Part shown: positions 22,084-63,840 of the stretch, piece after piece
Numbering within the stretch: the stretch's first letter is position 1
Layout: each line of letters begins with the position of its first letter
Source: Acidobacteriota bacterium
GTDB taxonomy: Bacteria > Acidobacteriota > Vicinamibacteria > Vicinamibacterales > UBA2999
Assembly: GCA_018000455.1 (NCBI GenBank)
Contig: JAGNJW010000025.1
Coordinates: 1 to 64,000 of the forward strand
Direction: 5' to 3'
DNA: 64,000 nucleotides
The notes under the pieces: model-generated
Told to the model about the DNA's origin: nothing
Seen by the model: the letters and a program-made list of their open reading frames with translations, nothing else
Database searches by the model: none
Made by a program: the position numbers and the translations under genes

Positions 22084-22122
22084 GCGACGCCTTCCATTTC
22101 CAGACACGCAGGAAGTCGTCGG

Positions 22123-22728: not shown

Positions 22729-22730
22729 AC

Positions 22731-23906: not shown

Positions 23907-23909
23907 AGC

Positions 23910-23948
23910 AGGGAATAGGGAACGGGGAGCAGGGAACAGGGATCGGGA
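23910..23948 (+). repeat. Degenerate GGGAACA heptamer repeat
   Basis: Five consecutive 7-nt units (GGGAATA, GGGAACG, GGGAGCA, GGGAACA, GGGATCG) between actF and the next gene. The same unit occurs in inverse orientation at 63787-63840. Looks like a dispersed simple-sequence spacer. Confidence 0.7.
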
Positions 23949-23986
23949 CGACCGGAGCTGCACCTCGACCTCGCCAGGACAACGAT

Positions 23987-24454: not shown

Positions 24455-24462
24455 ACAGGATC

Positions 24463-25317: not shown

Positions 25318-25323
25318 GTCCTT

Positions 25324-26337
25324 ATGGGTGGTATTCCGCTGTTTCCAGAGGCCGCATCGTCCTTCGCTTCGGAGGTCGACGCGCTCTATCTGTTCATCGT
25401 TGCCGTCTCGGCGTTCTTCACGCTGGCCATTTCGGCGGCTGTCGTGTACTTCGCCTTCCGGTATCGCCGCCGGCATGCCGAGGAGATTGGCGCGCATATC
25501 GAGGGGTCGCTGCCTCTCGAGCTCGCGTGGTCGATCATCCCGGCCATCATCGCCATGGTCATGTTCGCCTGGGGCGCCAAGCTCTACTACGAGATACGGC
25601 GTCCACCGGCCGAGTCGTTGCAGATCTACGCGGTGGGCAAGCAGTGGATGTGGAAGTTCCAGCATACCGGCGGCCAGCGCGAGATCAACGAGCTGCACGT
25701 GCCGGTGGGACGCCCCATCAAGGTGCTCGTGACGTCGGAGGACGTGCTGCACGACCTCTACTTCCCGGCCTTCCGCACCAAGATCGACGCCATCCCCGGC
25801 CGCTATCAGCCGCTGTGGTTCGAAGCCACCAAGCCCGGCCGCTATCACATCTTCTGCGCTGAATATTGCGGCACCAAACACTCCGGCATGATCGGCACCG
25901 TGATCGTGATGGAAGCGCCGCAGTACCAGGAATGGCTCGCCGGTGGCGGCAGTGAAGGCACGATGGCCGAGCGCGGGGCCAAGCTCTTCAACGACCTGGC
26001 CTGCAGCACCTGCCATCTCGACAACGGCCAGGGCCGCGGCCCGTCGCTCAAGGACATCGTCGGCAGGCCGGTGGAGCTGACCAGCGGGCAGACGGCGGTG
26101 GTCGATGAAGGCTACCTGCGCGAGTCGATCCTCAACTCGCAGGCGAAGATCGTGAAGGGGTTCACGCCTCTGATGCCGACGTTCCAGGGTCTCGTCAGCG
26201 AAGAAGGCCTGGCCGCGCTCATCGAGCACATCAAGTCGCTGTCGCCCCAGGCGACGGCTGTCGCGCCGCCTTCCGAGCCAGCGTCGGCCCCCTCAACCAG
26301 CCCGCCAGGCGCGCCGGCGCAGGGCGCGCGAAGGTAA
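25324..26337 (+). CDS. coxB: caa3 cytochrome c oxidase subunit II with fused cytochrome c
   Basis: Two N-terminal helices, then the cupredoxin CuA domain (VGKQWMWKFQH, VLHDLYFPAFRTKID, FCAEYCGTKHSGMIG with both CuA Cys, the His and the Met) and a C-terminal haem domain (CSTCHLDNGQG, with PLMPTFQG supplying Met). Fusion of a haem domain defines the caa3 type and lets it accept electrons directly from ACIII. It ends in a Pro/Ala tail 3 nt before subunit I. Confidence 0.95.
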   Translation: MGGIPLFPEAASSFASEVDALYLFIVAVSAFFTLAISAAVVYFAFRYRRRHAEEIGAHIEGSLPLELAWSIIPAIIAMVMFAWGAKLYYEIRRPPAESLQIYAVGKQWMWKFQHTGGQREINELHVPVGRPIKVLVTSEDVLHDLYFPAFRTKIDAIPGRYQPLWFEATKPGRYHIFCAEYCGTKHSGMIGTVIVMEAPQYQEWLAGGGSEGTMAERGAKLFNDLACSTCHLDNGQGRGPSLKDIVGRPVELTSGQTAVVDEGYLRESILNSQAKIVKGFTPLMPTFQGLVSEEGLAALIEHIKSLSPQATAVAPPSEPASAPSTSPPGAPAQGARR

Positions 26338-26340
26338 GCC

Positions 26341-27963
26341 ATGGAAACGCCCGTCTACCCAGCGCTCAACTACCTGTCGAAGGGCCACGGCCTCAAGTCG
26401 TGGCTGCTCACCAAGGACCACAAGCGGATCGCGATCCTCTACCTGATCTCGATCTCGATCTTCTTCTTCCTCGGCGGCCTGTTCGCCGTGGGGATCCGGC
26501 TCGAGTTGACCACGCCGCAGGGCGATCTCTTCCAGCCCGACACCTACAACAAGTTCTTCACGCTGCACGGCGTGATCATGGTGTTCTTCTTCCTGATCCC
26601 GTCGGTGCCGGCGGTGCTGGGCAACTTCCTCATTCCGCCGATGATCGGGGCCAAAGACCTGGCCTTCCCGCGCATCAACCTGCTCAGCTGGTACCTCTAC
26701 ATCGTCGGCGGCGTCTTCACCCTGTTCGCCATCATCCTGGGCGGTGTCGACACCGGCTGGACGTTCTATACGCCTTACAGTTCGGTCTCCTCGAGCACCA
26801 ACGTCGTCGCGACGGCGCTCGGCGTCTTCATCTCGGGTTTCTCGTCGATTCTGACCGGCCTGAACTTCATCGTCACGATTCACCGGATGCGCGCTCCCGG
26901 GATGACGTGGTTCAAGCTGCCGCTCTTCGTCTGGGCGCACTACGCCACCAGCCTCATCCAGGTCCTGGGCACGCCGGTCATCGCCATCACCATCCTGATG
27001 GTGTTCGTGGAGCGGGCCTTCGGCTTCGGCATCTTCGACCCGCAGCGCGGTGGCGACCCGGTGCTCTTCCAGCACCTGTTCTGGTTCTACTCGCACCCGG
27101 CCGTCTACATCATGATCCTGCCGGCCATGGGCGTGATCAGCGAAGTGATCTCGACTTTCTCGCGCAAGCGCATCTTCGGCTACAGCTTCGTGGCGTTCTC
27201 GTCGCTCGCCATCGCGGTGTTCGGCTTCATCGTGTGGGCGCACCACCTGTTCGTCGCCGGCATCACGGTCTACGCCGCGATGGTGTTCTCGTTCCTGAGC
27301 TTCTCGGTTGCGATTCCATCCGCCGTCAAGGTCTTCAACTGGTCGGCCACGCTGCACAAGGGCTCGCTCCGCTTCGACACGCCGATGCTCTATGTCTACG
27401 GTTTCTTCGGGCTGTTCCTCATCGGCGGGCTGACCGGCCTGTTCCTGGCCACGCTGGCCGTCGACGTCCACGTCCACGACACCTACTTCGTCGTGGCGCA
27501 CTTCCACTACATCATGGTGGGCGGCGCCATCATGGGCTACCTCGGCGGCCTGCACTTCTGGTGGCCGAAGATGGTCGGGCGGATGTACTCGGAGTTCTGG
27601 TCGAGGATCGCCGCTATTCTCGTGTTCGTGGGCTTCAACCTCACGTTCTTCCCGCAGTTCGTGCTGGGCTACATGGGCATGCCGCGCCGCTACCACATGT
27701 ATCCGGACGAGTTCCAGGTCCTGAACGTGTTGTCGTCGGCGGGGGCCTCGGTGCTCGGCCTCGGTTATCTGCTGCCGGTCATCTACTTCCTCTACTCACT
27801 CAAGTACGGCGAAGTGGCCGGCAACAACCCGTGGGGCGCCTCCGGCCTCGAGTGGCGCACGCAGTCGCCGCCGTTGACGGAGAACTTTCTCGAAGTGCCC
27901 CGGGACGTGCCGGAAGCGTACGAATACACCCCCAAGGTCATTCGGGAGGCCAAGCTTGTCTAA
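26341..27963 (+). CDS. coxA: Cytochrome c oxidase subunit I
   Basis: Catalytic haem-copper subunit: O2 reduction with proton pumping. The haem a ligand is in [12 protein letters not shown]. The CuB site is [12 protein letters not shown] with the crosslinked Tyr, plus WAHHLFVAG. The haem a3 and a ligands are in [12 protein letters not shown]. The K-channel region is visible; YSHP is of A-type. Twelve helices, 540 residues. TTG of subunit III overlaps its stop. Confidence 0.96.
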
Positions 27964-32539: not shown

Positions 32540-33145
32540 GTGTCGAGATGGCTGGCAATAGCCGTGCTTGCCCTCAGCGCGGCTTCCTGCGCTGGCGGCA
32601 CCGCGCCGTCTGAACGGATTCAGGCCGAGCGCGTGCAGCAACGCTCCCGCTGGGGCACGTCGTCGGTCTTCACGCCCGCCCGCACCGGCGTGGCGGATGC
32701 GGTTGGCACGCACTTCGGCATCCGCCGCGATCCCGTGCAGCCGTTCGCCTACAGCCACCGGATTCACCTCGCCAACGAACTCCTCTGCACCGATTGCCAC
32801 CAGGGAGTCGAAAGCGGGCCGATCGCCGGTATTCCCGGCATCAACACCTGCATGACGTGCCACGCCGCAATCGCGACCGACCAGCCGCTGGTCCAGACCA
32901 TGGCGGAGATGCAGTCGCAGGGGCGCGATTTTGCCTGGCAGCGGGTCTACGACTACCCGCGCGAAGCGCACGTGCGCTTCGAGCACGCTCCGCACGTCCG
33001 CGCCAAGGTGGAGTGCTCGACTTGTCACGGAGACATGCGCCAGCAGGACGTGGCCCAACGCGTCGTCGACATGGACATGGCCTTCTGCGTGAACTGCCAC
33101 AAACAGAAACAGGCGTCGAACGACTGCCTGACGTGCCACTACTGA
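32540..33145 (+). CDS. Pentahaem cytochrome c lipoprotein, ActA-like
   Basis: Five CxxCH motifs (CTDCH, CMTCH, CSTCH, CVNCH, CLTCH) in 201 residues, spaced like ActA. Unlike ActA it has a lipoprotein signal (lipobox AASC). The segment HRIHLANELLCTDCHQGVES parallels QHHVGGIGIDCRYCHTSVEV of ActA. It starts at GTG 8 nt after the previous stop. It would carry electrons from the adjacent Fe-S subunits. Confidence 0.88.
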   Translation: MSRWLAIAVLALSAASCAGGTAPSERIQAERVQQRSRWGTSSVFTPARTGVADAVGTHFGIRRDPVQPFAYSHRIHLANELLCTDCHQGVESGPIAGIPGINTCMTCHAAIATDQPLVQTMAEMQSQGRDFAWQRVYDYPREAHVRFEHAPHVRAKVECSTCHGDMRQQDVAQRVVDMDMAFCVNCHKQKQASNDCLTCHY

Positions 33146-33155
33146 GCCACCAGCC

Positions 33156-35324
33156 GTGACAGCGCCGATCGATCGCCGACGATTTCTCAAGGTCACCGCC
33201 ATCACCGGCACGACGGTGGCACTGGCCTCGTGCGGCAATCCCGAGAATCAGATCGTCCGCTTCATTCCGGACGAGGAGCTGGTGCCGGGCATAGCCGTCG
33301 CCAAGCCCAGCGTGTGCCCGCTGTGCGCCGCCGGGTGTGGCGTGGTGGCGCGCGTGATGGACGGCGAGGTCGAGGTCGTTCGCCAGGGGCAGCCGGGCGT
33401 CACGCGGATGGGCCTGGTGAAGAAGCTCGAAGGCGATGCCGCGCATCCGATCAGCCGCGGCCGCTTGTGCGTGCGCGGCCAGGCGGGCGTGCAGCTCACC
33501 TATCACCCCGATCGCCTCGTCGCCCCGCAGCGCCGAACCGGCGAGCGGGGCAGCGGCCAGTTCGCCGAGATCTCGTGGGACGAGGCTCTCAACCAGCTGG
33601 TCGAGCGCGTGGAGGCCGCCAGGGCGGTGAACCCCGAGAGCGTGGCGCTCTTGTCGCGCCGGCGCCGTGGACGCCGCGCCGCCATCGGCGCCGGACTCCT
33701 GGCAGGCATCGGCGCCCTGCCGCCGATCGTCTTCGACGTCTTCGACGACGCCGTGCTGCGCCGGGCCAACGAGCTCGCCTTTGGACACCACCAACTGCCG
33801 ACCTTCGACCTGGCGCACACCCGGTACCTCTTGAACTTCGGCGCCGACCTCCTCGGCACCTGGAACTCGCCGCTGGCGCAGTCGGCAGCCTACGGCGCCA
33901 TGCGCCGCGGCGGCTCGGGCGCCCGGGGCGCCTTCATCCACATCGAGCCACGGCTGTCGCAGACGGGGGCGAGCGCCGATGAATGGCTGCCGATTCGTCC
34001 GGGCACCGAAGGGGCGCTGGCGCTCGGCATCGCGCACGTCATCATGGCCGCCGGCCTCAGGCCCGCGGCCGCCGCCGGGCGTGCCGGGGCGCTCATCGAC
34101 GGATGGTCGTTGGGGCTCCCGGCCTTCACGCCAGAGGCGGTCGAGGCCACGACCGGCATCGTCCGGTCGCGGATTGAACGCCTGGCGCACGAGTTCGCCA
34201 CGCGCGCGCCGGCGGTGGCCGTGATTGGCGGCGCGCCGCTCGCCAACAGCAACGGTCTGGGGCAGGCGCTCGCCGTCAACGCGCTGAACGCTCTGGCCGG
34301 CAGCGTGGGCGTCGACGGGGGCGTGTCGTTCATGCCACAACCGGCCGGGGCGACGGCGCCCTCACGCCCTCTGCTACAGGCCTTGGGCGGCACAGCGCCG
34401 CAGGTGCTCCTGCTCGACGACACGAACCCGGTGTTCGGCGCGCCGCCGGGCTGGAAGACCCGGGACTGGCTGCGTCAGGTGCCGTTCATCGCCAGCTTCG
34501 GCAGTTTCGTCGACGACACCAGCGTGCAGGCCGACCTGCTGCTGCCCGACCACTCGTTCCTCGAGGCGTGGACCGAGTCGATGCCGGAATCCGGCGCCCG
34601 ATCGCTCGTGGCCACGGTGACGCCGCCGGCGATGCGCCCGCTCTACGACACCCGCGCCACACCCGACGTGCTGCTCGATCTGTCGCGACGGCTGCGGCCT
34701 GGCCAGTCACCGCCCCCGCCAGAGACATTCGAAGCGGCCCTGCAAGCCGCTGTCGAGCCCGCGCCGGTGGCGGCATCAGAACGGGCCGGCGGCGCCCCTG
34801 CCACCACGCCGATCGCCTGGCAGCCGCCGGAGTTCGACGGCGAAGTCGGCGAGTTCCCGTTCCTGTTTCAGCCCTATGCCTCGCAGGCACTGTTCGATGG
34901 CTCGCTGGCGCATCTGCCGTGGCTGCAGGAACTCCCCGACCCGCTGACGACGGCGATGTGGTGCAGCTGGGTCGAGGTGAATGCGCGCACCGCCGAGCGC
35001 CTCGGCATCCACGACGGCGACATCGTGGCGATCGCCTCGGCTCACGGCCAAATCGAGGCGCCGGTGGTCATCTCGCCCGGCATCGGACCGGAGACGATCG
35101 CCATGCCGGTCGGTCAGGGGCACGAGACGTTCACCCGGTATGCCAGCGGTCGTGGTGCGAATCCGTTGGCCATTCTGGCGCCCGCCACCGAGCCTGCCAC
35201 AGGGCAGGCGGCGTGGGCGGCGACGCGCGTCAAGCTCACCAGGGTCCGCGCCGCTGACGGCCAGCTGATTCTGTTCGGCGGCGCCACCAGAGAGCGCCCG
35301 GACCACGCGATGGGACGAGGCTGA
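33156..35324 (+). CDS. Molybdopterin-oxidoreductase-fold subunit with N-terminal [4Fe-4S] motif
   Basis: ActB-like large subunit of the second locus, 722 residues. A Tat signal (DRRRFLKVTAITGTTVALASC) implies folded export and lipidation. Unlike ActB it has C54-x2-C57-x3-C61 and C105 (PSVCPLCAAGC, GRLCVRG), the cluster ligands of genuine molybdoenzymes. ADLLLPDHSFLEAWTESMPE and the C-terminal VEVNARTAERLGIHDGDIVA dinucleotide-binding region are present. I see no clear Mo-ligating Cys, Ser or Sec, so catalytic molybdenum is uncertain. The ferredoxin part is a separate gene 1 nt downstream. Start GTG. Confidence 0.85.
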   Translation: MTAPIDRRRFLKVTAITGTTVALASCGNPENQIVRFIPDEELVPGIAVAKPSVCPLCAAGCGVVARVMDGEVEVVRQGQPGVTRMGLVKKLEGDAAHPISRGRLCVRGQAGVQLTYHPDRLVAPQRRTGERGSGQFAEISWDEALNQLVERVEAARAVNPESVALLSRRRRGRRAAIGAGLLAGIGALPPIVFDVFDDAVLRRANELAFGHHQLPTFDLAHTRYLLNFGADLLGTWNSPLAQSAAYGAMRRGGSGARGAFIHIEPRLSQTGASADEWLPIRPGTEGALALGIAHVIMAAGLRPAAAAGRAGALIDGWSLGLPAFTPEAVEATTGIVRSRIERLAHEFATRAPAVAVIGGAPLANSNGLGQALAVNALNALAGSVGVDGGVSFMPQPAGATAPSRPLLQALGGTAPQVLLLDDTNPVFGAPPGWKTRDWLRQVPFIASFGSFVDDTSVQADLLLPDHSFLEAWTESMPESGARSLVATVTPPAMRPLYDTRATPDVLLDLSRRLRPGQSPPPPETFEAALQAAVEPAPVAASERAGGAPATTPIAWQPPEFDGEVGEFPFLFQPYASQALFDGSLAHLPWLQELPDPLTTAMWCSWVEVNARTAERLGIHDGDIVAIASAHGQIEAPVVISPGIGPETIAMPVGQGHETFTRYASGRGANPLAILAPATEPATGQAAWAATRVKLTRVRAADGQLILFGGATRERPDHAMGRG

Positions 35325-41850: not shown

Positions 41851-41876
41851 CAATGGTCGTAGACGGTGACGTCGAC

Positions 41877-43103
41877 TTACCGGAACAGGTAGCGGAGGCC
41901 GCCCCAGAACTGGTAGTTGCTGTCGATGTCGCTCGCCCGGCGCAGCATCACGCGGCCTTCGGTCACGAAGAACAGCGTGCGCTGGTCGTCACCCTTCCAC
42001 AGCGGCAGCCCGAAGTGCAGGAGCGCCGTGGGCGTGATGAAGTCGCTGTGCGTCACGTCCCACAGGCCGAGGCCCGTGCCGACGTAGGCGCGGTTGCCGA
42101 AGCGCCTGTTGATCTCGGCATCCACGAAGAGGCTCGAGCGGTCGGACTCGTCGGTGTTGAAGGCGAAGCCAACGGCCGGGGCGAACACCCAGTTGCCCTT
42201 GAGCGCCTTCTCGATGCCCACCTTGCCGCCGAACAGCGGATCGCAGAAGCCGGGCAGGAACGCCGTGCCGAGACCGGCCGGATCGTTCTCGTCATACTGC
42301 CGGCGCTGCTTGCCGCCGAAGGCCGCGATGAACGGACGAATCGACAGCTCGCGCTCTTCGGCCAGACGCGCCTCTTCGGCGAGGCGCGCTTCTTCGGCAA
42401 GCCGCGCTTCCTCGGCCTTGCGGGCCTCCTCAGCGAGACGGGCCGCTTCGGCCGCGCGGGCCGCTTCGGCCGCGCGGGCGGCCTCAGCCTTGCGGGCTTC
42501 CTCGGCCATCCGGGCCTCTTCAGCCTTGCGAGCCTCGGCGGCGCGCATTTCCTCTGCCCTCTTGGCGGCAGCGGCTTCGGCCTCACGGCGGGCCATTTCC
42601 CGGCTCGGCTCACGCGAGGTGAGCGAGAGATTGCCGCAGTCCTGCGGGATGACGAAGGTGTAGGTTTCCTTCAGGTCGTCGATCACGAACTCGAAGCCGG
42701 CAAACGGCTTGGCGCCCTGCCAGCGGACCATACGCAGAACATTGGCCCGGCCTCTGGGCCGAAGGGCCATCCACTGCAGGTTCGTGCCCGGCGCGATTGT
42801 GACTTCGCGGACGGCGCCGTCGCCGATCGCCTTCTTGACCTCGGCCTCGAGATGAGACAACCCGGTGAGGTTCAGTACGGTCGTGATGTCGCGCTGGGTG
42901 CGCGGGCTGGAGAACGTCTTCTGGAGGCTCTGGACGGTACGGACTGGAGCCGTGAACCGCGATGGGGTTCCGAGCCGACGGACGACGTGCACCTTTTCGG
43001 TGGACGCCTGGGCAAATGTCTCCGCGGGCATTCCGAAGGTCACGAACCCCAGCAGGGCGGCGAGACATACGGCGTGCGCGCGAGCATGGACATGAATGGT
43101 CAT
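41877..43103 (-). CDS. Exported protein with Ala/Glu/Arg coiled coil and C-terminal beta-barrel
   Basis: Signal peptide (about residues 1-30, starting MTIHVHARAHAVC), then a 130-residue domain with VREVTIAPGTNLQWMALRP, a coiled coil of some 85 residues built from EEARKAEEARLA units (about 170-255), and a 150-residue C-terminal part of alternating strands ending in FWGGLRYLFR, which has the terminal aromatic residue of outer-membrane barrels. I infer a small barrel in the outer membrane with a TolA-like periplasmic stalk. No known family recognised. It has its own -10 box and a strong terminator, so it is monocistronic. Confidence 0.75.
   Translation of the reverse strand: MTIHVHARAHAVCLAALLGFVTFGMPAETFAQASTEKVHVVRRLGTPSRFTAPVRTVQSLQKTFSSPRTQRDITTVLNLTGLSHLEAEVKKAIGDGAVREVTIAPGTNLQWMALRPRGRANVLRMVRWQGAKPFAGFEFVIDDLKETYTFVIPQDCGNLSLTSREPSREMARREAEAAAAKRAEEMRAAEARKAEEARMAEEARKAEAARAAEAARAAEAARLAEEARKAEEARLAEEARLAEEARLAEERELSIRPFIAAFGGKQRRQYDENDPAGLGTAFLPGFCDPLFGGKVGIEKALKGNWVFAPAVGFAFNTDESDRSSLFVDAEINRRFGNRAYVGTGLGLWDVTHSDFITPTALLHFGLPLWKGDDQRTLFFVTEGRVMLRRASDIDSNYQFWGGLRYLFR
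42350..42597 (-). repeat. Coding repeat of the coiled-coil segment
   Basis: Short in-frame units of about 15 nt encoding EEARL/EEARK/AEAAR variants repeat through this stretch. It is a low-complexity, helix-forming repeat that may vary in copy number between strains. Confidence 0.7.
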
Positions 43104-43477
43104 GACACCTCGCTGTCGATTACAGGTTGGCAGCCGTGCTGGGGACACGACTACTGTCCGCATTATAGACACAAGGTGAGGGGAAAGACAGTCCTTGCGC
43201 ACTCTGGCACCCAGGGTGCCGAGGTTCGGCGGCGTCCCTGGCCCTGCTTTCGACTTCCCGTCGCACTACTGGCTGTCGTCGAACACGCCTGGTGTCGGCT
43301 GCGCGCCGCCGGCGCCGGTCGTGGTCCTGCCCCCCAGCCGACCTGGCGCGGCCGGCCTGAAGCGGGCCACGGGGTCCCGAGCGGTTCGGCGACCCCGGCC
43401 CGTCCTGGCCTTCGACCCGACCGGCGACCCCTTGGGCATTCGGGTAGACTGCGCGGGATCGGCGAGGGGGTGGGCAG
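43104..43477. other. Divergent intergenic region
   Basis: 374 bases between the barrel gene (minus) and the M28 peptidase gene (plus). It contains the minus-strand -10 box below and GGACA...TGTCC around the expected transcript start (43143-43159). No convincing gene; GAGGGGG precedes the M28 ATG. Confidence 0.6.
43162..43167 (-). promoter_or_regulatory. -10 box of the barrel protein gene
   Basis: Perfect TATAAT on the minus strand, 58 nt before the start codon; no good -35 partner at 16-18 nt. In such GC-rich DNA a perfect hexamer between divergent genes is noteworthy. Confidence 0.45.
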
Positions 43478-44689
43478 ATGCGAACGATGACGTGGCTCTT
43501 CGGACTGGCGGTGGCAATCGCGTGCACCGCAAGCATGCGCGCACAGGCGCCTGCGCAGGCGCCGACCGCGCCCGACGCCGTTCGGACCCTCGTTTCGCGG
43601 CTCGAACTCGAACGCTACAAGGCCACCATCAAGGGCCTGACCGAGTTCGGGGATCGCCGGCAGGGCACCGAGCGCAACCGCAAGGCCGTGGACTGGATCG
43701 AAGCGCAGCTCAAGAGCTACGGCTGCCCCACCGAACGCCTCAAGTACGACTTCAGTGCGCCGCCGCCTCGTCCGACGTCCGCGGCGGCCGGGCCGCGCCC
43801 GGCGCCGAATCCGAACGCCCGCGCCGTGGGTGGCGGGCGTCCGCGCGGGCAGCGCGCCCGCACCGGCGTCAACACCGATCCGATGCGCCAGCCGGACGAG
43901 CGGCTGCGCGCGCTCAACAGCGAGCCGGCGACCAACGGCCCGCGCGAGCTCGTCTACTGCACCAAGGTCGGCACGTCCCTGCCCGGTGAGATGTACATCA
44001 TCGGCGCCCACATGGACGGCCACGGCTGGGGCGAGGCGGCCAACGACGATGGCTCCGGCACCGCGCTCGTGATGGAGCTGGCCCGTATCTTCTCGATGCC
44101 CGACGTCACCACCGAGCGCACGATCCGCTTTGCGCTCTGGAACAACGAAGAAACAGGCCTCAACGGCGCCCGCGCCTACGTCGAGCAGCGCAAGGCGCTT
44201 CAGGGCAGGGAAGACCCGCCCGGATCGGGTCGCTATCCGGAGCCGCGCTGGCTCGGCATGATCCAGCACGACATGATGCTCTTCGACCATGGCGCCCCGC
44301 GTGCAGACGGCACGGTGAGTCCCGACCAGCGGCCCGAGGCCGACGTGAACATCGAGTTCCAGAGCAACTCGCGGATGGCGGCCGATTCGCAGAAGCTCGC
44401 CTGGTTCCTGCACGCCGCCAACGCGGAATATGCCACCGACTACCCGGCACAGGTCGGCCCGCACATGACCAACACCGACTCGACGCCGTTCATGGACGAG
44501 GTGGCCGCCGTCAGCATGCGCGAGAACGAACGCGGCGTTCACGTCGGCAGCGGCTGGGATCCGCACTGGCACCAGCCGACCGACATCTACGCTACGTTCT
44601 CCGACCAGGACTTCCTGCTGGGCCTCAACGCCGGCCAGACGACGCTGTCCGGGGTGGCGCAGCTCACCGGCGCGAAGCTGAAGCCGTAG
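43478..44689 (+). CDS. Exported M28 family zinc peptidase
   Basis: Aminopeptidase or glutamate-carboxypeptidase-like enzyme. Signal peptide MRTMTWLFGLAVAIACTASM. Metal and catalytic residues are visible in order: GAHMDGHGWG (His-x-Asp near residue 178), EAANDDGSGTALVMELARI (bridging Asp), LWNNEETGLNGARAY (Glu pair), QHDMMLFD (Asp) and WHQPTDIY (final His). A 60-residue Pro/Arg/Gly-rich insert lies before the catalytic core. 403 residues. Probably periplasmic or secreted. Confidence 0.9.
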   Translation: MRTMTWLFGLAVAIACTASMRAQAPAQAPTAPDAVRTLVSRLELERYKATIKGLTEFGDRRQGTERNRKAVDWIEAQLKSYGCPTERLKYDFSAPPPRPTSAAAGPRPAPNPNARAVGGGRPRGQRARTGVNTDPMRQPDERLRALNSEPATNGPRELVYCTKVGTSLPGEMYIIGAHMDGHGWGEAANDDGSGTALVMELARIFSMPDVTTERTIRFALWNNEETGLNGARAYVEQRKALQGREDPPGSGRYPEPRWLGMIQHDMMLFDHGAPRADGTVSPDQRPEADVNIEFQSNSRMAADSQKLAWFLHAANAEYATDYPAQVGPHMTNTDSTPFMDEVAAVSMRENERGVHVGSGWDPHWHQPTDIYATFSDQDFLLGLNAGQTTLSGVAQLTGAKLKP

Positions 44690-44976: not shown

Positions 44977-46323
44977 ATGTCGTCTGTCGTGCCTCTGGAG
45001 ACCTCGTGGCTGGCTGCCGCCACCACCCTCCACCTCGCGCTGGCTGCCTTGTGCAGTCACCGCCAGCCCGCCCGTCGCTGGACGAGCCCGCTGGCGCTCG
45101 TCTCCGTCCTGCTCGCCGGAGCGCCGTGGTTCTTCCCGTCACTCCTCGGCGTAATGGCCGGCGTGGCCGTCCACGCTGTGTGGTTTGCCATTTGCGTCCG
45201 CGTGACCCCGGCTGCCGCGCCGGTCACCACCGCGCCCCGGCCCGCCCCACCGCGTGCCACGCCGACACCGGCCCGTCGGGCGGCCGATACCAGGCCCAAG
45301 GGGTTCGTCCAGGCGCCCGTGCTCGCCGTGCTCCCTGAGAGCGTCGACATCAAGACCTTCCGTCTGGCGCGTCCCGAAGGCTTCGAGTTCACGCCCGGCC
45401 AGTTCCTCACGCTGCGGGTACGCGCCAACGGCAAGGATGTCGTGCGCTGTTACTCGATCAGCTCGCCGCCGGCCGCTCGCGGCTATCTCGAGATCTCCGT
45501 CCGCAAGCAGGGCCTCGTTTCGAACGCCCTGCACGCGATGGTGCGTCCTGGCTCGATGCTCAGCGTGCGCGCGCCAGCCGGAGCGTTCGTCTACCCCGGC
45601 GGCGACGACCGGCCGCTCGTGCTGCTGGCCGGCGGCATCGGCATCACGCCGCTCATGAGCATGCTGCGCCACGCACTCCTCAACGAGCCGACCCGGCCCG
45701 TGGCGCTGCTCTACTCGGCTCGCGAGCTGGCCGACTTCGCGTTCAGAGATGAGCTATTGACGCTCGCCCGTCGCCATGACGATCTGCGGCTGGTCTTCGC
45801 GGCCACGCGGGGCGAGGCGCCGCCCGACGTGCATCGCGGCCGGATCGACGCCACGCTGTTGTCGTCGGCGGTGCCCGACCTGCAGCATGCCATCTCGATG
45901 ATCTGCGGCCCGCAGGCGATGATCGACGACCTCACCGCGACCCTGCACGGCCTGGGCGTGGCTGCCGATCAGGTCCGCTCCGAGCGTTTCGAAGCGGCCG
46001 TCGCCGCGTCCGCGGGACGCCCGGCCGCGGCCGTCGACGACGATGCGGGGGACGGGCGCGAGGCGTTCCAGATGCGGGAGCGACGCTCGGCGCGGGCCGT
46101 GCCGGTCGCGCGCGGTCAAACGCTGCTCGACGCCGCCGACGCCCATGGCCTCGACATCCCGTCGCTGTGCCGGGCTGGTGTCTGCGGCACCTGCCGAACG
46201 CGGGTGATTGAAGGCGACGTGCGCTGTGATGGGGGCGTGCTCGACGACGCCGATCGGGAATCCGGCTACGTGCTGGCCTGTCTGGCGTCGCCTCGCAGCG
46301 ACTGTGTGATCGAGGTCGCCTGA
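44977..46323 (+). CDS. Membrane-anchored FAD/NAD(P)H reductase with C-terminal 2Fe-2S ferredoxin
   Basis: Three parts. Residues 1-75 form two or three membrane helices. Residues 110-340 are a ferredoxin-NADP reductase module: RCYSISSPP (FAD-binding RxYS), GYLEISVRKQ, LLAGGIGITPLMSMLRHAL (NAD(P) site) and ICGPQAMIDD. The end is a plant-type [2Fe-2S] domain (CRAGVCGTCRTRV and LACLA). It would take electrons from NAD(P)H, or give them back, at the cytoplasmic face. It leads an operon with a putative b-type cytochrome and two giant multihaem cytochromes, so it is likely the entry point. The ATG follows the structured leader. Confidence 0.85.
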   Translation: MSSVVPLETSWLAAATTLHLALAALCSHRQPARRWTSPLALVSVLLAGAPWFFPSLLGVMAGVAVHAVWFAICVRVTPAAAPVTTAPRPAPPRATPTPARRAADTRPKGFVQAPVLAVLPESVDIKTFRLARPEGFEFTPGQFLTLRVRANGKDVVRCYSISSPPAARGYLEISVRKQGLVSNALHAMVRPGSMLSVRAPAGAFVYPGGDDRPLVLLAGGIGITPLMSMLRHALLNEPTRPVALLYSARELADFAFRDELLTLARRHDDLRLVFAATRGEAPPDVHRGRIDATLLSSAVPDLQHAISMICGPQAMIDDLTATLHGLGVAADQVRSERFEAAVAASAGRPAAAVDDDAGDGREAFQMRERRSARAVPVARGQTLLDAADAHGLDIPSLCRAGVCGTCRTRVIEGDVRCDGGVLDDADRESGYVLACLASPRSDCVIEVA

Positions 46324-46326
46324 GTC

Positions 46327-47250
46327 ATGACGTCCTCGTCGGCCGCCGTCGCCCGCCCCGTCGCCGCCACGCCATCGCGCGCGCGCCAGATGCTCATGCC
46401 GCTCGGCGCGCTGGTCGGGGTGATGAGCATCAGCTTCGCCGTGGCCGTGGGCGTGATGCTCTGGGTGCTGGTGGGCCTCGACGGCTGGACCTACTACGGT
46501 ACGCCCTTCAGTGTGCGCGGATACAGCCCCGCGCATCCGCTGCTCCGACCCTCGGGCCCGGTCGGGCAGACGCTCGGCGTGGCCGGGGCCGCGCTCATGC
46601 TCGTGCCGTTCATCTACATGGTGCGCAAGCGGCTGGCCCGCGGGCGAAGCGGTGCGAATCTCAAGCGGTGGCTGGAGGTGCACATCTTCTGCGGCATCGT
46701 CGGCCCGGTGCTCGTCACGTTTCACACGGCCTTCAAGTTCAACGGCATCGTCTCGGCGGCTTACTGGTCGATGGTGCTGGTGGCGCTCTCGGGCTTCGTC
46801 GGCCGCTATCTCTACGTGCGAATTCCCCGCACCATCCGTGGCGTGGAGCTCTCGCAGGGCGAACTCGACGAGCGGATGTCGGCCCTGCTCGAAGACCTGC
46901 AGTGGACGGCCGGTCCGGGCGTGCTCGACGCCATCGATGGACTCGATGCCGACATCACCGCCGCCGCGCCGCGTTGGTGGCAGCTCGGGAGCCGTCGTTC
47001 ATTGGCCGCCTCGATTCAGACGGCGACGAGCAACCTGGCGATCGCCGACGCCGGCGTGTCGGCGCGCCTCGCCGCGCTGCTCGGCGAACGCGCCGAACTT
47101 CAGCAGCGCCGGCACGCGCTCGACGTGACCAAGCGCATCTTCAACATGTGGCACGTGTTCCATCTGCCGCTCGTCTGGATCATGTTCGCCATCGTCTCGC
47201 TTCATGTCGCAGTGGCGCTCTATCTGGGATACGTCCCGTTCCGATGGTGA
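46327..47250 (+). CDS. Putative di-haem b-type membrane electron carrier
   Basis: 307 residues, about five helices. His119 and His133 lie in one helix (RWLEVHIFCGIVGPVLVTFH), and His279 and His293 in the last helix (MWHVFHLPLVWIMFAIVSLH). The two 14-residue spacings are what stacked bis-His b haems need. A 110-residue loop between helices is helical and non-conserved looking. It lies 3 nt after the reductase gene and overlaps the 24-haem gene by 7 nt. Inferred to move electrons across the inner membrane between the flavoprotein or quinone pool and periplasmic cytochromes. No family name can be given with certainty. Confidence 0.7.
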   Translation: MTSSSAAVARPVAATPSRARQMLMPLGALVGVMSISFAVAVGVMLWVLVGLDGWTYYGTPFSVRGYSPAHPLLRPSGPVGQTLGVAGAALMLVPFIYMVRKRLARGRSGANLKRWLEVHIFCGIVGPVLVTFHTAFKFNGIVSAAYWSMVLVALSGFVGRYLYVRIPRTIRGVELSQGELDERMSALLEDLQWTAGPGVLDAIDGLDADITAAAPRWWQLGSRRSLAASIQTATSNLAIADAGVSARLAALLGERAELQQRRHALDVTKRIFNMWHVFHLPLVWIMFAIVSLHVAVALYLGYVPFRW

Positions 47251-49274
47251 GTGGGTGTGGACCTACGCGCGCGCCGACGGCGCTCAGAGTCTGCGGGCTG
47301 GCGACACTGCTGTGCCTGACGGCGGCCTCAGCGACGGCCGGCGAGCAGCTCGGCGCGCTCGTCTCGCCTGGACGCCTCAGCCAGCCGCACGCCGAACTGG
47401 AAGGCATCCGCAGCTGCATCAAGTGTCACGAGGCCGGCCAGCGCGTGTCGACCGCCAAGTGCCTGTCGTGTCATACGCCGATTGCCGACCGTATCCGCGC
47501 CAAACGCGGCGTGCACCGGAGCGTGCAAGGTGAGTGTGTGACCTGCCACGCCGAGCATCAGGGCGCCGCCGGCGAGTTGCGCCCGTTTACCACCGCGGGC
47601 TTCGACCATGGGCGCGAGGCCGGCTATCCGCTCGACGGCCGGCACGCGCCGCTGGCGGCCAAGTGCGAGTCGTGCCACAAGACGCGCACGTTCCTTGCGG
47701 CGTCAACCGCCTGCGCTTCGTGCCATACCGACACCCACAAGGGCACGCTCGGGAACCGGTGCGAGACGTGTCACACGACCAGCGCCGCCTTCAAGGACGT
47801 CAGCCAGGCCTTCGACCATACCAAGGCGGCCTTCCGGCTCGAAGGCGCCCATCAGAAGGTGGCGTGTGCGGCGTGCCACAAGAACCAGCAGTTCAAGGGT
47901 CTCGCCTTCGCGACCTGCGACAGCTGCCATCGCGATCCGCACACGCCCAAGCAGGCCGAGTCGTGCGCCGCCTGCCACACCGCGGCATCCTGGCGGACGC
48001 GTCGCTTCGACCACGAGCGCACGAAGTTCGTCCTCAAGGGCCAGCACCAGACGACCGCCTGCGCGGCGTGCCACGTGAAGCCGGCCCTGCAAGTGACGCC
48101 AGGTCACGCCACCTGCGCCGCGTGCCATCAAGATCCTCATCGCGGTCGCTTCAAGGAAGACTGTGCGTCGTGCCACAACGAGCAGAGCTTCGCGAAGGCG
48201 CCGTTCGATCACGCCACTACGGCCTTTCCCCTCACCGGGAAACACGCCCCCGCGACCTGCGTGGCCTGCCACACGAATCTGACGCGCGTGGCGGCGCGCA
48301 CCGGGCGTCCGGCGCAGGCGGCCACGGTGGATTTCGGCGGCCTGAAGCGTGACTGCGTGTCGTGTCACGACGACACGCACAAGGGCGACCTCGGCGCGTC
48401 GTGCGAGAGCTGCCACACCACCGAACGTTTCGCCGTCACGACCTATGCGCATCGCACGCCGGCGCCCTTCTTCGACGGCGCGCACACGCCGGCGACGTGT
48501 GTGCAGTGTCATGCGCCCACAGGGTCGGCCGCGACGCCCGTGCTGGCGCGAGCGACTGCGCCGGCCGCCCCGGCCGCCCCGGCCGCGGGCGCCGCCTCGG
48601 GTGCCGCGACAGTGCGCACGGCGCCGACGCCAGGCCCCCTTGCCGACGTCCACTTCAGCGCCACGCCGCGGACGTGCGTTACCTGTCACGCCGACGCGCA
48701 CCTCGGCCAGGTGGCGCAGACGTGCGAGAGCTGCCACAGCGTGTCGCTGGCGAAGTTTGCCGTGGCGTCCACCTTTGACCACGCGCGCACGAAGTTTTCA
48801 CTCGGCGGCAAGCACGCCTCGCTCGCTTGCGCCAAGTGCCACGACACGAAGACGCAGGCCTTCCCGGCCGGTGCGGGCACGGCGGTGCGGCTGATTGGCC
48901 TCGGCACGACGTGCGCCTCCTGTCATCAGGACGTGCACCTCGGGCAACTCGGCGCTCGCTGCGAGACGTGCCACTCCGACCAGACGTTCAAGGTCGGCAC
49001 CTACACCCACCAGAACGCCGCCCAGGCCGCGTTCTTCGCCGGCGCCCATCGCAAGACCGCCTGTAGCGCCTGCCACACGCCGGCCACCGGCGCGTTTGCC
49101 GCCGGCAACGGCACGGCCGTGCGCTACGCCATCGCCACGACCTGCACGAGCTGCCACAAGGACGTCCACAACGGCGCGCTCGGACCGAAGTGCGCCGACT
49201 GCCATCGTCTCGACCGTCTGGCAGGAGGTCGCCTCGCACCGTCGACCCTGGCCGCGACCAGGAGCGCTCGATGA
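47244..49274 (+). CDS. 24-haem periplasmic cytochrome c
   Basis: 676 residues with 24 CxxCH motifs from CIKCH to CADCH, about one per 27 residues. Signal peptide in the first 33 residues. Repeating pattern: FDH...F.L.G.H....C..CH followed by THKG.LG..C..CH. An Ala/Pro linker (TAPAAPAAPAAGAASGAATV) near residue 440 splits it into about 16 and 8 haems. Many non-motif His residues could be axial ligands. The start ATG overlaps the b-type gene. Likely a long periplasmic electron wire. Confidence 0.88.
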   Translation: MVSGCGPTRAPTALRVCGLATLLCLTAASATAGEQLGALVSPGRLSQPHAELEGIRSCIKCHEAGQRVSTAKCLSCHTPIADRIRAKRGVHRSVQGECVTCHAEHQGAAGELRPFTTAGFDHGREAGYPLDGRHAPLAAKCESCHKTRTFLAASTACASCHTDTHKGTLGNRCETCHTTSAAFKDVSQAFDHTKAAFRLEGAHQKVACAACHKNQQFKGLAFATCDSCHRDPHTPKQAESCAACHTAASWRTRRFDHERTKFVLKGQHQTTACAACHVKPALQVTPGHATCAACHQDPHRGRFKEDCASCHNEQSFAKAPFDHATTAFPLTGKHAPATCVACHTNLTRVAARTGRPAQAATVDFGGLKRDCVSCHDDTHKGDLGASCESCHTTERFAVTTYAHRTPAPFFDGAHTPATCVQCHAPTGSAATPVLARATAPAAPAAPAAGAASGAATVRTAPTPGPLADVHFSATPRTCVTCHADAHLGQVAQTCESCHSVSLAKFAVASTFDHARTKFSLGGKHASLACAKCHDTKTQAFPAGAGTAVRLIGLGTTCASCHQDVHLGQLGARCETCHSDQTFKVGTYTHQNAAQAAFFAGAHRKTACSACHTPATGAFAAGNGTAVRYAIATTCTSCHKDVHNGALGPKCADCHRLDRLAGGRLAPSTLAATRSAR

Positions 49275-51337
49275 ATCGCTTCCCGCTGCTGCTGGCACTC
49301 GCCCTGGCCGTGCTCATTGGCTCGATCGCGACCCGCGCCCAGTTCGAGACACCGAATCGCGCGTTTCACAGCAACACGACTTTCCCGCTCACTGGCCGCC
49401 ATCAGGTCGTGGCCTGCGAATCGTGCCATTTGAAGGGCGTCTTCAAGGGTACGCCACGCACCTGCTACGACTGCCACTGGGTGCGCAGACAAGACGACAA
49501 GTTCAAGACGACCCTCGGCACCCAGTGCGAGAGCTGTCATCGGACCATCAGCTGGACCGCCGTGCGCTGGGATCACGCGGCACTGACGGGCATGCCCCTC
49601 AACGGCGCGCATCGCACCATCGGCTGCGAGTCGTGTCACACCAACGGGCGCTTCACCGGCGTGGCGGTGTCGTGCGTCAACTGTCACCAGAAGGACTACG
49701 CGGCGACCACGACCCCGAACCACGCCGCGGCCGGTTTCCCTACCGCGTGTGAGGCCTGCCACCGGCCGGCTGATGTCGCCTTCAGCCAGGCCCGCTTCGA
49801 CCACAACGCGTCATTCCCGCTGACCGGGCCCCACCAGACGACCACCTGCGCTAGCTGCCACCGCAACAACGTGTTCCGGGGCACGTCGCGCGAGTGTTCC
49901 AGTTGCCACCAGGCCGACTTCGCGCGGGCACAGGAACCCAATCACGTCGCCGCCGGCTTCCCGACGACCTGCGAACTCTGCCATCGCGCCAACGCGCCTT
50001 CGTGGCGGACGTCCGGCACGACGGCCTTCGCGCACGCGAGCTTCCCACTCGTCGGCCTGCACGCGCAGCAGACCTGCACCAGCTGCCACAGGAACAGCGT
50101 CTTTGCCGGCACGCCCCGCGACTGCGTGGGCTGTCATCGGCCTGCCTACGAGCGGACGACGACACCGAATCACATCGCCGCTGGCTTCCCGACCACGTGC
50201 GAGAGCTGCCACCGGCCGAGCGAGCCAGGCTGGCGCAGCTCCGGAGGCTTCAATCACGCGCAGTTCTTCCCGCTCGTCGGTCAGCACACGATGCAGACGT
50301 GCGTGGCCTGCCACACGAACAACCAGTTCAAGGGCACCGCGCGCGACTGCGTCGGTTGCCACCGTGCCAACTACGAGCGCACGACCACGCCGAATCACGC
50401 CCAGGCGGGCTTCCCGACCACCTGCGAGAACTGCCACCGGCCGACGGATCCGAGCTGGGGCGGCGGCAACTTCAATCACAATCAGGTGTTCGCGCTGGCC
50501 GGGCGGCACGCCACCGCGGCCTGCGCCGCGTGCCATGTGAACAACGTGTTCAGAGGTACGGCGCGCGACTGCGTCGGTTGCCACCGCACCGAGTACGACC
50601 GCACCACGGCACCCAACCACGTGCAGGCGGGGTTCCCGACGACCTGCGACAACTGCCATCGCAACAGCGACCAGACGTGGCGGAACGCCAACTTCAACCA
50701 CAACCAGGTGTTCCAGCTGGTCGGCAAACACGCCACCGTGGCCTGCGCCGTGTGCCACGTGAACAACGTGTTCCGAGGCACCGCGCGCGAGTGCATCGGG
50801 TGCCACCGCGCCGAGTACGACCGCACGGCCACGCCGAACCATGCGGCGGCCGGCTTCTCGACCAACTGCGAGACCTGTCATCGCCCGACCGACCAGACAT
50901 GGCGCGGTGTGACCTTCAATCACAACACCTTCTTTGCCCTGCAGGGCATCCACGCGCTGCAGGCGTGCGCGACGTGTCACCGGAACAACGTCTATCGCGG
51001 CACGCCCCGTGACTGCGTGAGCTGTCACCGCGCCAAGTACGACGCCACGCGCAATCCGAACCACGTGCAGTCGGGCTTTCCGACCACTTGTGAGAACTGT
51101 CATCGGGCCGGCGACACCAACTGGAACCAGGGCCGCTTCTCGCACACACGGTTCCCGCTCAGCGGGCGGCACAACGTGGCCTGCGTGCAGTGCCACACGA
51201 CCAACAACCCTCCCGTCTTCAACTGCCTCGTCTGTCACACGCGATCGGAGACCGACAGTCACCACCGAAACCGCGCCGGCTACCGCTACGAGTCGGCGGC
51301 CTGCTACTCGTGTCACGCCAACGGAAGGGCGGACTGA
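49271..51337 (+). CDS. 27-haem cytochrome c of nine triple-haem repeats
   Basis: 688 residues with 27 CxxCH motifs arranged as nine tandem units of about 72 residues. Each unit reads roughly FPLxGxHxxxxCxxCH, NNVFRGTxRxCxxCH, PNHxxAGFPTTCExCHR, followed by W...FNH. The regular unit implies a filament-like or solenoid stack of haems. A cleavable signal peptide (MNRFPLLLALALAVLIGSI) exports it. It overlaps the 24-haem gene by 4 nt (ATGA). Triple-haem repeats of this kind occur in other environmental bacteria, but I know of no functional assignment. Likely located in the periplasm or at the cell surface. Confidence 0.9.
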   Translation: MNRFPLLLALALAVLIGSIATRAQFETPNRAFHSNTTFPLTGRHQVVACESCHLKGVFKGTPRTCYDCHWVRRQDDKFKTTLGTQCESCHRTISWTAVRWDHAALTGMPLNGAHRTIGCESCHTNGRFTGVAVSCVNCHQKDYAATTTPNHAAAGFPTACEACHRPADVAFSQARFDHNASFPLTGPHQTTTCASCHRNNVFRGTSRECSSCHQADFARAQEPNHVAAGFPTTCELCHRANAPSWRTSGTTAFAHASFPLVGLHAQQTCTSCHRNSVFAGTPRDCVGCHRPAYERTTTPNHIAAGFPTTCESCHRPSEPGWRSSGGFNHAQFFPLVGQHTMQTCVACHTNNQFKGTARDCVGCHRANYERTTTPNHAQAGFPTTCENCHRPTDPSWGGGNFNHNQVFALAGRHATAACAACHVNNVFRGTARDCVGCHRTEYDRTTAPNHVQAGFPTTCDNCHRNSDQTWRNANFNHNQVFQLVGKHATVACAVCHVNNVFRGTARECIGCHRAEYDRTATPNHAAAGFSTNCETCHRPTDQTWRGVTFNHNTFFALQGIHALQACATCHRNNVYRGTPRDCVSCHRAKYDATRNPNHVQSGFPTTCENCHRAGDTNWNQGRFSHTRFPLSGRHNVACVQCHTTNNPPVFNCLVCHTRSETDSHHRNRAGYRYESAACYSCHANGRAD
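49361..51330 (+). repeat. Nine tandem coding repeats of about 216 bp
   Basis: The triple-haem units are visible at DNA level, best conserved in units 4 to 8 (about 50050-51110), where phrases for FPTTCE and NNVFRGTAR recur every 210-220 bp. Likely grown by unequal recombination; copy number may differ between strains. Confidence 0.75.
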
Positions 51338-51339: not shown

Positions 51340-53454
51340 GTGGTGAGATACGCACGCCTGATCTACGCCCTGTGCGCAGTGCTCGTGTCGGTGCCAGAGA
51401 TGGCGTCGGCCGAGGCCGGCCGGGCTCGACAGCCAGCGGCCTCCGTGCAGCTGAGCGCGGTCACGGTCGGACTCGACGGTCCGTTCGTTCGGATCACCGT
51501 GCACGGCACGGCCGCACTGCCGGTCGTGACCGCGACGCCAACCACCGAAGGTCCGCCGCGAGTGTTCATCGACCTGCCGGGCGTGTCGCCGGGACGGGTG
51601 CCGGCGTCGCTCACCGGGCGGGCGATCGTGCGCCGGGTGCGCGTGGCTCTCAACTCGGCCGATCCGCCGGTGACCCGGCTGGTGCTGGACCTTGCCGGCG
51701 AGGTCACGACGGCGATGGTGCCGGGTGGCAGCGAGCTCACGATCGTGGTCGCGCCCGCGCCAGGGGTCACCGTCGCAACGGCGCCGCTGTTGGCCAACGC
51801 TGCGCCGGCCCCAGTGCCGCCTGCGACGAGTCAGGCGACCCCGCCTGCGCCGTCCAGGCCCTCGCCGGTGCCGGCAGCAGCCGCGGTGGCTTCACTTCGT
51901 CCACCACCGGCGGTAGCTGCCCCAGCTCCCCCCGCAGCGCGCGTGTCCGCCCTTGCTACACCCGCCGCCTCGTCGACTGCCCCTGCGATCTCGCCACGTG
52001 CGACGCCACTACCCGCGCCCCTTTCCGAGACACGTGCCGCCCTGTCTGAACCGCCATCCGCCGCGCCGCCTGCCGCACCGTCTGCCGCCCACACCGCCGC
52101 ACCGGCCGTCGCACCCACCGCGCCGCTCGCCGTCGCCGCTGCCGGGCCGGTGCCGCCAGCCGCGCAGCCTCCCTCGGCGCCGATGGGCGGCTTCGGCACA
52201 CCGCGGGCGTTGCGCCCGAGCGGTCGCGTGTCGGTCTACGTCAGCGGCGCGAAGACGTCACAGATGGACGGCCCAGGCTACGGCTACGGCGATGTCATGA
52301 CGGCCGTGAACTACGAGCTTTCCGATCGCGAGAGCGACGGCGTCGAATACGGTCTCGACATGCGGCACGCCGCCTACACGGTGCAGGGACGGGCATCACG
52401 CGTGTCGGTCTACACGGGCTACGTCGGCACGCGGCTGGCCGGCGGCGCTCTCAAGGCGCGCGTGGGCCATCTGTGGCTCGACGACCTTGGTGGGCTCGGC
52501 GCCGTGGCCGGCGCGCACGTCGAGGGCCGCACGGCTCCCGTGATTCCGACCTCCGGCCTCGGACGCTGGCGCGCGGGTGTGTTCGGCGGTCTCGAGCCCA
52601 ACGTCTATACGCTCGGCTACGGGGAGTCGGTGCGGAAGATGGGCGCCTACGGCGCGCTCGAGGGCGCGCGTGGTCGGCGCCACGTCGCCGGCTACGTCAA
52701 TATCCACAACGGCGCGCTGACCGAGCGCTCGGTGCTGACGGTGACCAACTACCTCCCAGCCGGGCCGCTTTCCGTCTATCAGGCGGCGGAATACGATCTG
52801 TCGCCGCCGGCCGGTGGACGCGGCCACGACGGGCTCACCTATTTCTTCAGCAACGCCCGGGTGAACGTGTCGCGGCGGCTCGAACTGCTCGGCACGGTGA
52901 GCCGCGGCCGCTCGGTCGACACGCGCGGGCTCAGCGACGATATTCAGGCCGGACGTGCCGTCTCGCAGCAGTCGCTCGACGGCCTGCGCTACGAGTCGGT
53001 CGGCGGGCGCGCCACCGTCGAAGTGCTGCCGCGCCTCAGGGTGCACGCCGGCTACTCCCGCGACAAGAACAACCGCGACGATGCGTCCACGGGTCGCTGG
53101 CAGGTCGGTGCCTTCGGCGGCAACGTCTTCGACACCGGTCTCGACGTGACGGTGTCCGACAACCGCACGGCCCGGCCCGACGGCAGCTATCACTCCACCT
53201 ATCTGTCGATGGGCCGCGAACTCGGTCGGCGCATCTACGCCACGGCCGAGTATTCGACGGCGCTGTCGCAGGTGCGCTTCGTGCGTGGCGACGGGATCAT
53301 CATCGACTCGCGGCCCGAGACCAAGCGCACCGGCGTGAACGGATCGATCCTGCTCTGGCGCTCGACGTCGCTACTCCTGTCGGCCGAGCGCACGACCGGC
53401 AACGACTACAAGGAACTGCGCGTGCTGGCCGGCATCACGGTGCGCCTGCGCTAG
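51340..53454 (+). CDS. AMIN domain, Pro/Ala linker and C-terminal outer-membrane beta-barrel
   Basis: Signal peptide, then an AMIN-like domain (about residues 35-140: RITVHGTAALPV, PRVFIDLPGV, RLVLDLAG), which binds peptidoglycan in other proteins. A 140-residue Pro/Ala/Thr linker follows, then from about residue 290 some 400 residues of short alternating strands and Tyr/Gly-rich turns (RVSVYVSG, YGLDMRHAAYTV, RVSVYTGYVG), ending GITVRLR. I infer an outer-membrane barrel tethered to the cell wall. Placed 2 nt after the 27-haem gene, it may hold the cytochrome as a porin-cytochrome conduit. GTG start; a second GTG follows directly. Confidence 0.72.
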   Translation: MVRYARLIYALCAVLVSVPEMASAEAGRARQPAASVQLSAVTVGLDGPFVRITVHGTAALPVVTATPTTEGPPRVFIDLPGVSPGRVPASLTGRAIVRRVRVALNSADPPVTRLVLDLAGEVTTAMVPGGSELTIVVAPAPGVTVATAPLLANAAPAPVPPATSQATPPAPSRPSPVPAAAAVASLRPPPAVAAPAPPAARVSALATPAASSTAPAISPRATPLPAPLSETRAALSEPPSAAPPAAPSAAHTAAPAVAPTAPLAVAAAGPVPPAAQPPSAPMGGFGTPRALRPSGRVSVYVSGAKTSQMDGPGYGYGDVMTAVNYELSDRESDGVEYGLDMRHAAYTVQGRASRVSVYTGYVGTRLAGGALKARVGHLWLDDLGGLGAVAGAHVEGRTAPVIPTSGLGRWRAGVFGGLEPNVYTLGYGESVRKMGAYGALEGARGRRHVAGYVNIHNGALTERSVLTVTNYLPAGPLSVYQAAEYDLSPPAGGRGHDGLTYFFSNARVNVSRRLELLGTVSRGRSVDTRGLSDDIQAGRAVSQQSLDGLRYESVGGRATVEVLPRLRVHAGYSRDKNNRDDASTGRWQVGAFGGNVFDTGLDVTVSDNRTARPDGSYHSTYLSMGRELGRRIYATAEYSTALSQVRFVRGDGIIIDSRPETKRTGVNGSILLWRSTSLLLSAERTTGNDYKELRVLAGITVRLR

Positions 53455-63786: not shown

Positions 63787-63840
63787 TTCCCTGTTCCCCG
63801 TTCCCCGTTCCCTGTTCCCTGTTCCCTGTTCCCTGTTCCC
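63787..63840 (+). repeat. TTCCCTG heptamer array
   Basis: About seven and a half copies of TTCCCTG/TTCCCCG directly before the EF-P-like gene; the reverse complement of the unit at 23910-23948. Nearly perfect at its 3' half. Confidence 0.85.

Follow-up and report, generated by a model that had tools for sequence, protein, structure and literature searches.

A stretch of 64,000 nucleotides from a soil-type Acidobacteriota bacterium (NCBI GenBank assembly GCA_018000455.1, contig JAGNJW010000025.1, positions 1 to 64,000; hereafter the window) encodes, at positions 49271 to 51337 of the + strand, a c-type cytochrome of 688 amino acids (aa) with 27 haem-binding motifs. We propose that this protein acts as the distal cytochrome, the one of variable length, in a PCC3-type conduit carrying electrons across the cell envelope, a reading to which we assign a probability of about 0.6. 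Its gene is the fourth of five tightly packed + strand genes, in which each start overlaps or abuts the previous stop. As judged by its testable features, this cluster is a porin-cytochrome cluster (PCC) of type PCC3, the known members from Pseudomonadota being compared by their published description.

Proposals of PCC3-type conduits date back to 2017, and the function of these conduits is still without experimental test. The Acidobacteriota set offers natural experiments, as one cytochrome is fixed at 24 haems and the other varies by triple-haem units among close relatives, and fused versions remove the question whether the two halves are separate. It thereby becomes testable whether a single haem chain crosses the envelope of Gram-negative bacteria and how the length of that chain is determined. 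The cluster also suggests that electrons are moved across the envelope in a phylum that is abundant but has been little studied for its extracellular redox biology.

Units and haem ligands of the 27-haem cytochrome

The gene starts with an ATG at 49271, which overlaps the stop of a 24-haem cytochrome gene, and ends with a stop codon at 51335-51337. Translation and motif count bear out the coordinates, strand and frame, and the 27 CxxCH motifs in nine triple-haem units, given by a first, sequence-only reading of this DNA; there are no CX3-8CH motifs beyond these 27. The protein matches Pfam Cytochrome_C7 (PF14522) in seven stretches (E=2.9e-32; 110.7 bits against a gathering score of 24.8). Such an array is far beyond chance, since outside the 27-haem and 24-haem genes only 17 CxxCH motifs occur in all six frames of the window, 10 of them in two pentahaem genes. 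The ratio of non-synonymous to synonymous substitution rates (dN/dS) against the same-genus orthologue, 0.12, likewise speaks for a real gene, and dN/dS values of 0.10-0.20 indicate purifying selection. The first 23 residues (49271 to 49339, + strand; MNRFPLLLALALAVLIGSIATRA) form a Sec signal peptide without lipobox, and the predicted mature N-terminus is QFETP.

The nine units had been described as near-identical repeats of about 72 residues. They measure about 74 aa, with a repeat period of 222 nucleotides at the DNA level, and near-identity is refuted by a pairwise identity of 31-72%. Units 1, 2 and 9 are specialised and fall into clades of their own. The CxxCH motifs of inner units are spaced by 16/25/33-35 residues, those of unit 1 by 16/21 and those of unit 9 by 14/26. 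The N-terminal end units 1 and 2 (49364 to 49795, + strand) are orthologous by position across families. The middle units 3-8 (49796 to 51130, + strand; spacing 16/25/33) follow the consensus FNHxxxFPLxGxHxxxxCxxCHxNNVFKGTxRDCxxCHxxxYxRTTPNHxxAGFPTTCxxCH, vary in number and show turnover within lineages. The C-terminal end unit 9 (51131 to 51334, + strand), with its terminal GYxYxSxACYSCHPxG, is kept from Acidobacteriota to Bacteroidota and can still be recognised in distant families. In a tree of the units of eight genomes, the first, second and last units each form one clade (100/100, 99/100 and 100/100), whereas middle units often cluster by genome. Because end units form clades across genomes and middle units group by genome, the protein, as read from its sequence, opens with two end units at the N-terminus, continues with a run of interchangeable middle units and closes with a single end unit at the C-terminus.

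Concerning the haem ligands, the whole protein contains 54 cysteines, exactly two per motif, and 54 histidines, 27 of them outside the motifs. Comparison of non-motif histidines with haems in this protein and its relatives gave 27/27, 26/27, 23/24, 15/15, 45/45 and 51/51 (G108, at a contig end, was excluded). Each middle unit carries three non-motif histidines (in FNH, GxH and PNH); unit 1 lacks the PNH histidine. A ratio of about one extra histidine per haem, maintained in homologues with 15-51 haems, is most naturally read as bis-His ligation of nearly every haem. The His-Met haem that GSU1996 of Geobacter sulfurreducens has in each domain (PMC10138318) has no counterpart here, since the protein contains only three methionines, the start included, and no methionine recurs from unit to unit.

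These counts also bear on the idea that the protein is a terminal reductase or oxidase and not a conductor. Sequence search of solved structures (PDB) gave no close relative, and the weak matches that it did give, to cytochrome c554, to nine- and sixteen-haem cytochromes and to GSU1996 (E=0.1), would be compatible with an enzyme. The histidine count however suggests that all haems are six-coordinate, leaving no free haem for catalysis; moreover, a conserved non-haem domain is lacking and the haem number drifts freely among relatives. We consider an enzymatic role very unlikely.

The gene cluster and its relatives

The first gene of the cluster (44977 to 46323, + strand) encodes an NAD(P)H-dependent flavin adenine dinucleotide (FAD)/2Fe-2S reductase of 448 aa with Pfam domains FAD_binding_6, NAD_binding_1 and Fer2, likely the cytoplasmic point of electron entry or exit. 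It is followed by an inner-membrane protein of 307 aa (46327 to 47250, + strand) with five hydrophobic segments, of which the third and the fifth each carry WX3HX13H and the fourth carries SGFVG. By definition, the inner-membrane protein of PCC3/PCC4 has five transmembrane (TM) helices, WX3HX13H on TM3 and TM5 and SGXXG on TM4 (He et al. 2017, PMC5566968), and every one of these published features is found here. None of 20,000 shuffles reproduced the motif order, and no Pfam or NCBIfam model matched the protein. It is probably, on the strength of these motifs, a di-haem-b transmembrane electron carrier of the PCC3/PCC4 type.

The third gene (47244 to 49274, + strand), whose start overlaps the membrane protein gene, encodes a c-type cytochrome with Sec signal, 24 CxxCH motifs and Cytochrome_C7 matches. 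Neither this cytochrome adjoining the 27-haem protein nor the rest of the cluster had been mentioned in the sequence-only reading. The two cytochromes have 28.2 and 25.5 residues per haem, respectively, inside the range of 22-39 published for PCC3 cytochromes (PMC5566968), and the mature chain of the 27-haem protein has 24.6, near the 25.1 of MtrA (PMC7399161). In peptide-minimised cytochromes about 27 haems span about 200 Angstrom (PMC7096707). The haem density of the mature chain and this published length correlation would lend indirect support to a close spacing of the haems.

The fifth gene (51340 to 53454, + strand) encodes a probable outer-membrane protein that combines a signal and a marginal AMIN domain with a Pro/Ala-rich linker and a strand-rich region of about 400 aa. 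By a crude estimate it has 17 strand-like segments against 12.7 +/- 2.1 in shuffles, and one orthologue has 23 against 15.6. Orthologues end in YRF or YRFR; that of G137 is full length without the AMIN part. A gene of this type is retained downstream in most relatives with this type of cluster. A scan of the cluster for promoters and terminators gave nothing informative.

Matches to the 27-haem protein at E <= 1e-20 were found in 16 of 149 near relatives and in 43 of 396 genomes sampled across the phylum. In near relatives the genes stand in the same order, from the reductase through the membrane protein and the two cytochromes to the probable barrel protein, and most relatives of this type, with split or fused cytochromes, have the reductase gene adjoining that of the membrane protein. 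Among the 149 genomes, 13 have both the membrane protein and the 27-haem protein, three and two have one of them singly, and 131 have neither (odds ratio 284, p = 3e-14, a value inflated by shared descent). As a separate observation, G141 has the membrane protein in two copies on separate contigs, with haem-rich frames near each. The record CALQBJ020000099.1 (L008), titled as a metagenome-assembled genome of 'Bifidobacterium breve', carries this Gram-negative cytochrome cluster and is probably mislabelled.

In distant Acidobacteriota families the first cytochrome has 20-23 haems and the second 19-46 or more, and a reductase of the pyridine-nucleotide-disulphide type mostly lies near the membrane protein. 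Outside the phylum, plasmid pEMTOL02 (NC_018749.1, L102) of Emticicia oligotrophica DSM 17448 (Bacteroidota) has a like cluster with cytochromes of 23 and 40 haems, preceded by a CcsA gene and followed by the gene of a probable barrel protein; the reductase of this cluster differs. As a named culture-collection strain, this organism is a possible experimental system. Plasmids of Sphingobium and Methylophaga (L103, L104) carry cassettes of reductase, membrane protein, heptahaem cytochrome and DUF1622 near copper/heavy-metal genes, and heptahaem-type matches are also present on further Sphingomonadales plasmids. All Pseudomonadota plasmid matches that were inspected are heptahaem cassettes. The first three genes of the L103 and L104 cassettes look like a minimal form of the electron-entry module.

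Elsewhere in the window, positions 16023-27963 encode a pentahaem cytochrome, an Fe-S protein, NrfD, SCO1, COX2 with a cytochrome c domain and COX1, which looks like an operon for alternative complex III and a caa3-type oxidase. At 32540-35321 a molybdopterin oxidoreductase comes after a second pentahaem cytochrome. A repeat array of 18-nucleotide period (42350-42536) lies within a frame at 41853-43490 without Pfam match, and the seven-base tandem repeat TTCCCTG occurs in 7.7 copies at 63787-63840.

A fixed and a variable cytochrome as parts of a proposed conduit

Of the 19 near relatives whose first cytochrome is readable, 18 have 24 haems in it (11 split, 7 fused), the exception being G076 with six. 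The second cytochrome, where complete, has 15, 18, 21, 24 or 27 haems and always consists of whole triple-haem units. G003, of the same genus, lacks one unit, apparently through merging of units 6 and 7. A count of repeats in related genomes had been suggested as a check on the first reading, and this variation of 15-27 haems in steps of three, between fixed end units, gives good support to its view that length is set by repeat number. In Burkholderiales, too, the larger cytochrome varies by whole CxxCH domains among close relatives (PMC7399161). We also considered whether 27 haems are a requirement of periplasm width (PMC7096707) and rejected this, as orthologues range from 15 to 27 while the neighbour is fixed at 24.

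In eight genomes both cytochromes lie in one open frame (G062, G078, G089, G153, G175/L007, G385, G399 and G076). At the joint, the last haem of the first cytochrome leads into RAFHK...FPLEGRH of the second, with 33-34 residues between motifs and no signal peptide. The complete fused chains with a 24-haem half carry 45, 51, 51 and 54 haems; the CxxCH pattern counts 53 in G399, where it misses one motif of the form CxxGGCH. Independent assemblies agree, which speaks against an artefact. In G076 (L042, 3167-5572) the first half is reduced to 6 haems instead of 24, giving a fused chain of 6+24, and the search of this genome, which is 90% complete, revealed no matching membrane protein; the chain may be a wire shortened in nature or may have a different electron partner. 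As fused relatives join the two cytochromes in one polypeptide, we infer that the separate cytochromes meet end to end.

The first haems of the 24-haem protein suggest where the other end might attach. Its residues 39-257, with the first seven or so haems, resemble heptahaem cytochromes encoded on plasmids beside a homologous reductase and membrane protein, which suggests that its N-terminus docks to the membrane protein and that the remainder is an extension. In the proposed conduit, electrons would pass from NAD(P)H through the FAD/2Fe-2S reductase to two b haems of the five-TM membrane protein, by a path reversible in principle. They would then enter the heptahaem-like N-terminal part of the 24-haem cytochrome, and run along its 24 haems. 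At the C-terminus of this cytochrome they would be passed on, by an end-to-end contact, to the 27-haem cytochrome at its N-terminal end unit. Along the putative bis-His haems of the nine units they would reach the conserved C-terminal end unit and exit there, at or beyond the outer membrane, with the putative beta-barrel assisting. The fixed 24-haem part would bridge the periplasm and the repeat number of the second cytochrome would set the reach.

The union of both cytochromes in one polypeptide, with no signal peptide at the joint, argues for an end-to-end wire. It is possible, with the odds nevertheless against it, that the two cytochromes form one continuous wire of 39-54 haems from the inner membrane through the barrel to the outside. 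In such a wire the segment that bridges the periplasm would be fixed and the outer segment free to evolve, with its length tuned in steps of three haems; some Acidobacteriota would make the whole wire as a single polypeptide.

The fused chains can also be read differently. A single chain means one export event, as would suit two giant cytochromes that stay in the periplasm as an electron store (capacitor) or inter-membrane relay, a role proposed for GSU1996 and GSU2210; 27-haem GSU2210 is indeed described as periplasmic (PMC10138318), and a variable haem number suits a store equally well as a wire. The ordinary Sec signals of both cytochromes, with neither lipobox nor lipid anchor by sequence, fit this as well. 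On the other hand, a gene of outer-membrane type lies directly downstream and is kept in most relatives, and fused chains of 45-54 haems would exceed the periplasm in length, at about 27 haems per 200 Angstrom (PMC7096707), unless they are bent. We regard a periplasmic store or relay as rather unlikely.

A third use of a repeat architecture with dense haem packing would be polymerisation of the 27-haem protein into an extracellular filament like OmcS, OmcE or OmcZ, with the repeats as building units. Nothing suggests polymerisation of this kind: the conserved, specific start and end units suit one finite molecule, every subunit would bear a large appendage when fused to the 24-haem protein, and the search of solved structures revealed no sequence similarity to OmcS, OmcE or OmcZ. 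We hold such a filament to be highly improbable.

For the PCC3-type conduit itself, several observations have to be weighed on the negative side. The signals just mentioned leave extracellular placement of the cytochromes to analogy. The product of 51340-53454 matches no barrel or porin family of Pfam, and its strand count is crude. In two relatives, G076 and G089, fused cytochromes occur without a detected membrane protein. Confidence of AlphaFold was low both for the mature 27-haem protein with four relatives (predicted local distance difference test, pLDDT, 37.8; predicted template modelling score, pTM, 0.17) and for a three-unit model with 23 repeat-shifted rows (pLDDT 57.8, pTM 0.24), and for this reason haem distances are not measurable from the models; Foldseek of the three-unit model returned only one meaningless match. 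Furthermore, both PCC3 clusters of Sideroxydans ES-1 are down-regulated on Fe(II) (PMC8788666), so that the substrate may not be iron, and we assign none.

Comparison with known systems

MtrCAB, MtoAB and PioAB share with the present cluster the logic of porin and multihaem cytochrome, and their MtrA is close in residues per haem. They differ in being decahaem systems without such a two-haem-b partner (general knowledge and PMC5566968). OmcS, OmcE and OmcZ are likewise long haem chains proposed for long-range conduction; they are however polymers with 4-8 haems per subunit, whereas here length is built into a single polypeptide. The Sphingobium and Methylophaga plasmid cassettes have a homologous reductase and membrane protein and a cytochrome like the first seven or so haems of the 24-haem protein, yet they stop at seven haems, have no adjacent barrel gene and lie near copper/heavy-metal genes.

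Monomeric many-haem chains are known from Geobacter sulfurreducens: GSU2210 with 27 haems, and GSU1996 and GSU0592 with 12 haems, GSU1996 being made of triple-haem domains. The present protein scores 17.1 bits with the model TIGR04257 (nanowire_3heme), below its cut-off of 40 bits, and its 24-haem neighbour scores 44.9 bits. By sequence, the unit thus differs from the Geobacter c7 unit, as the sequence-only reading had held. In contrast to GSU1996, the 27-haem protein has no conserved methionine, and it differs from the Geobacter chains (GSU2210 being compared by description) in being encoded in a cluster with a membrane protein and a probable barrel. The idea of a different kind of nanowire finds partial support, since 27-haem GSU2210 and PCC3 pairs of, often, 24 plus a variable number of haems were already published.

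The closest counterparts are the PCC3 of Pseudomonadota (Sideroxydans ES-1, CL21 and Burkholderiales S13), which comprise a five-TM motif protein, two haem-dense cytochromes and an outer-membrane barrel. The barrel, encoded adjacently, is often very large, with up to 42 strands, and the published cytochrome pairs carry 24+14, 24+12, 24+28 and 24+49 haems (PMC12442390, PMC8788666, PMC7399161). The gene order here, membrane protein, multihaem cytochrome, multihaem cytochrome and probable porin, agrees with that of PCC3. The present clusters differ in their hosts (Acidobacteriota and Bacteroidota), the leading FAD/2Fe-2S reductase gene, the marginal AMIN domain and the eight fused relatives. PCCs of other porin types are known in an Acidobacteria genome (PMC7399161); in the literature searched, the coverage of which was incomplete, we found no report of a cluster such as this one in Acidobacteriota, nor of the fused form. 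As far as this literature shows, a known kind of system is met here in a bacterial group new for it.

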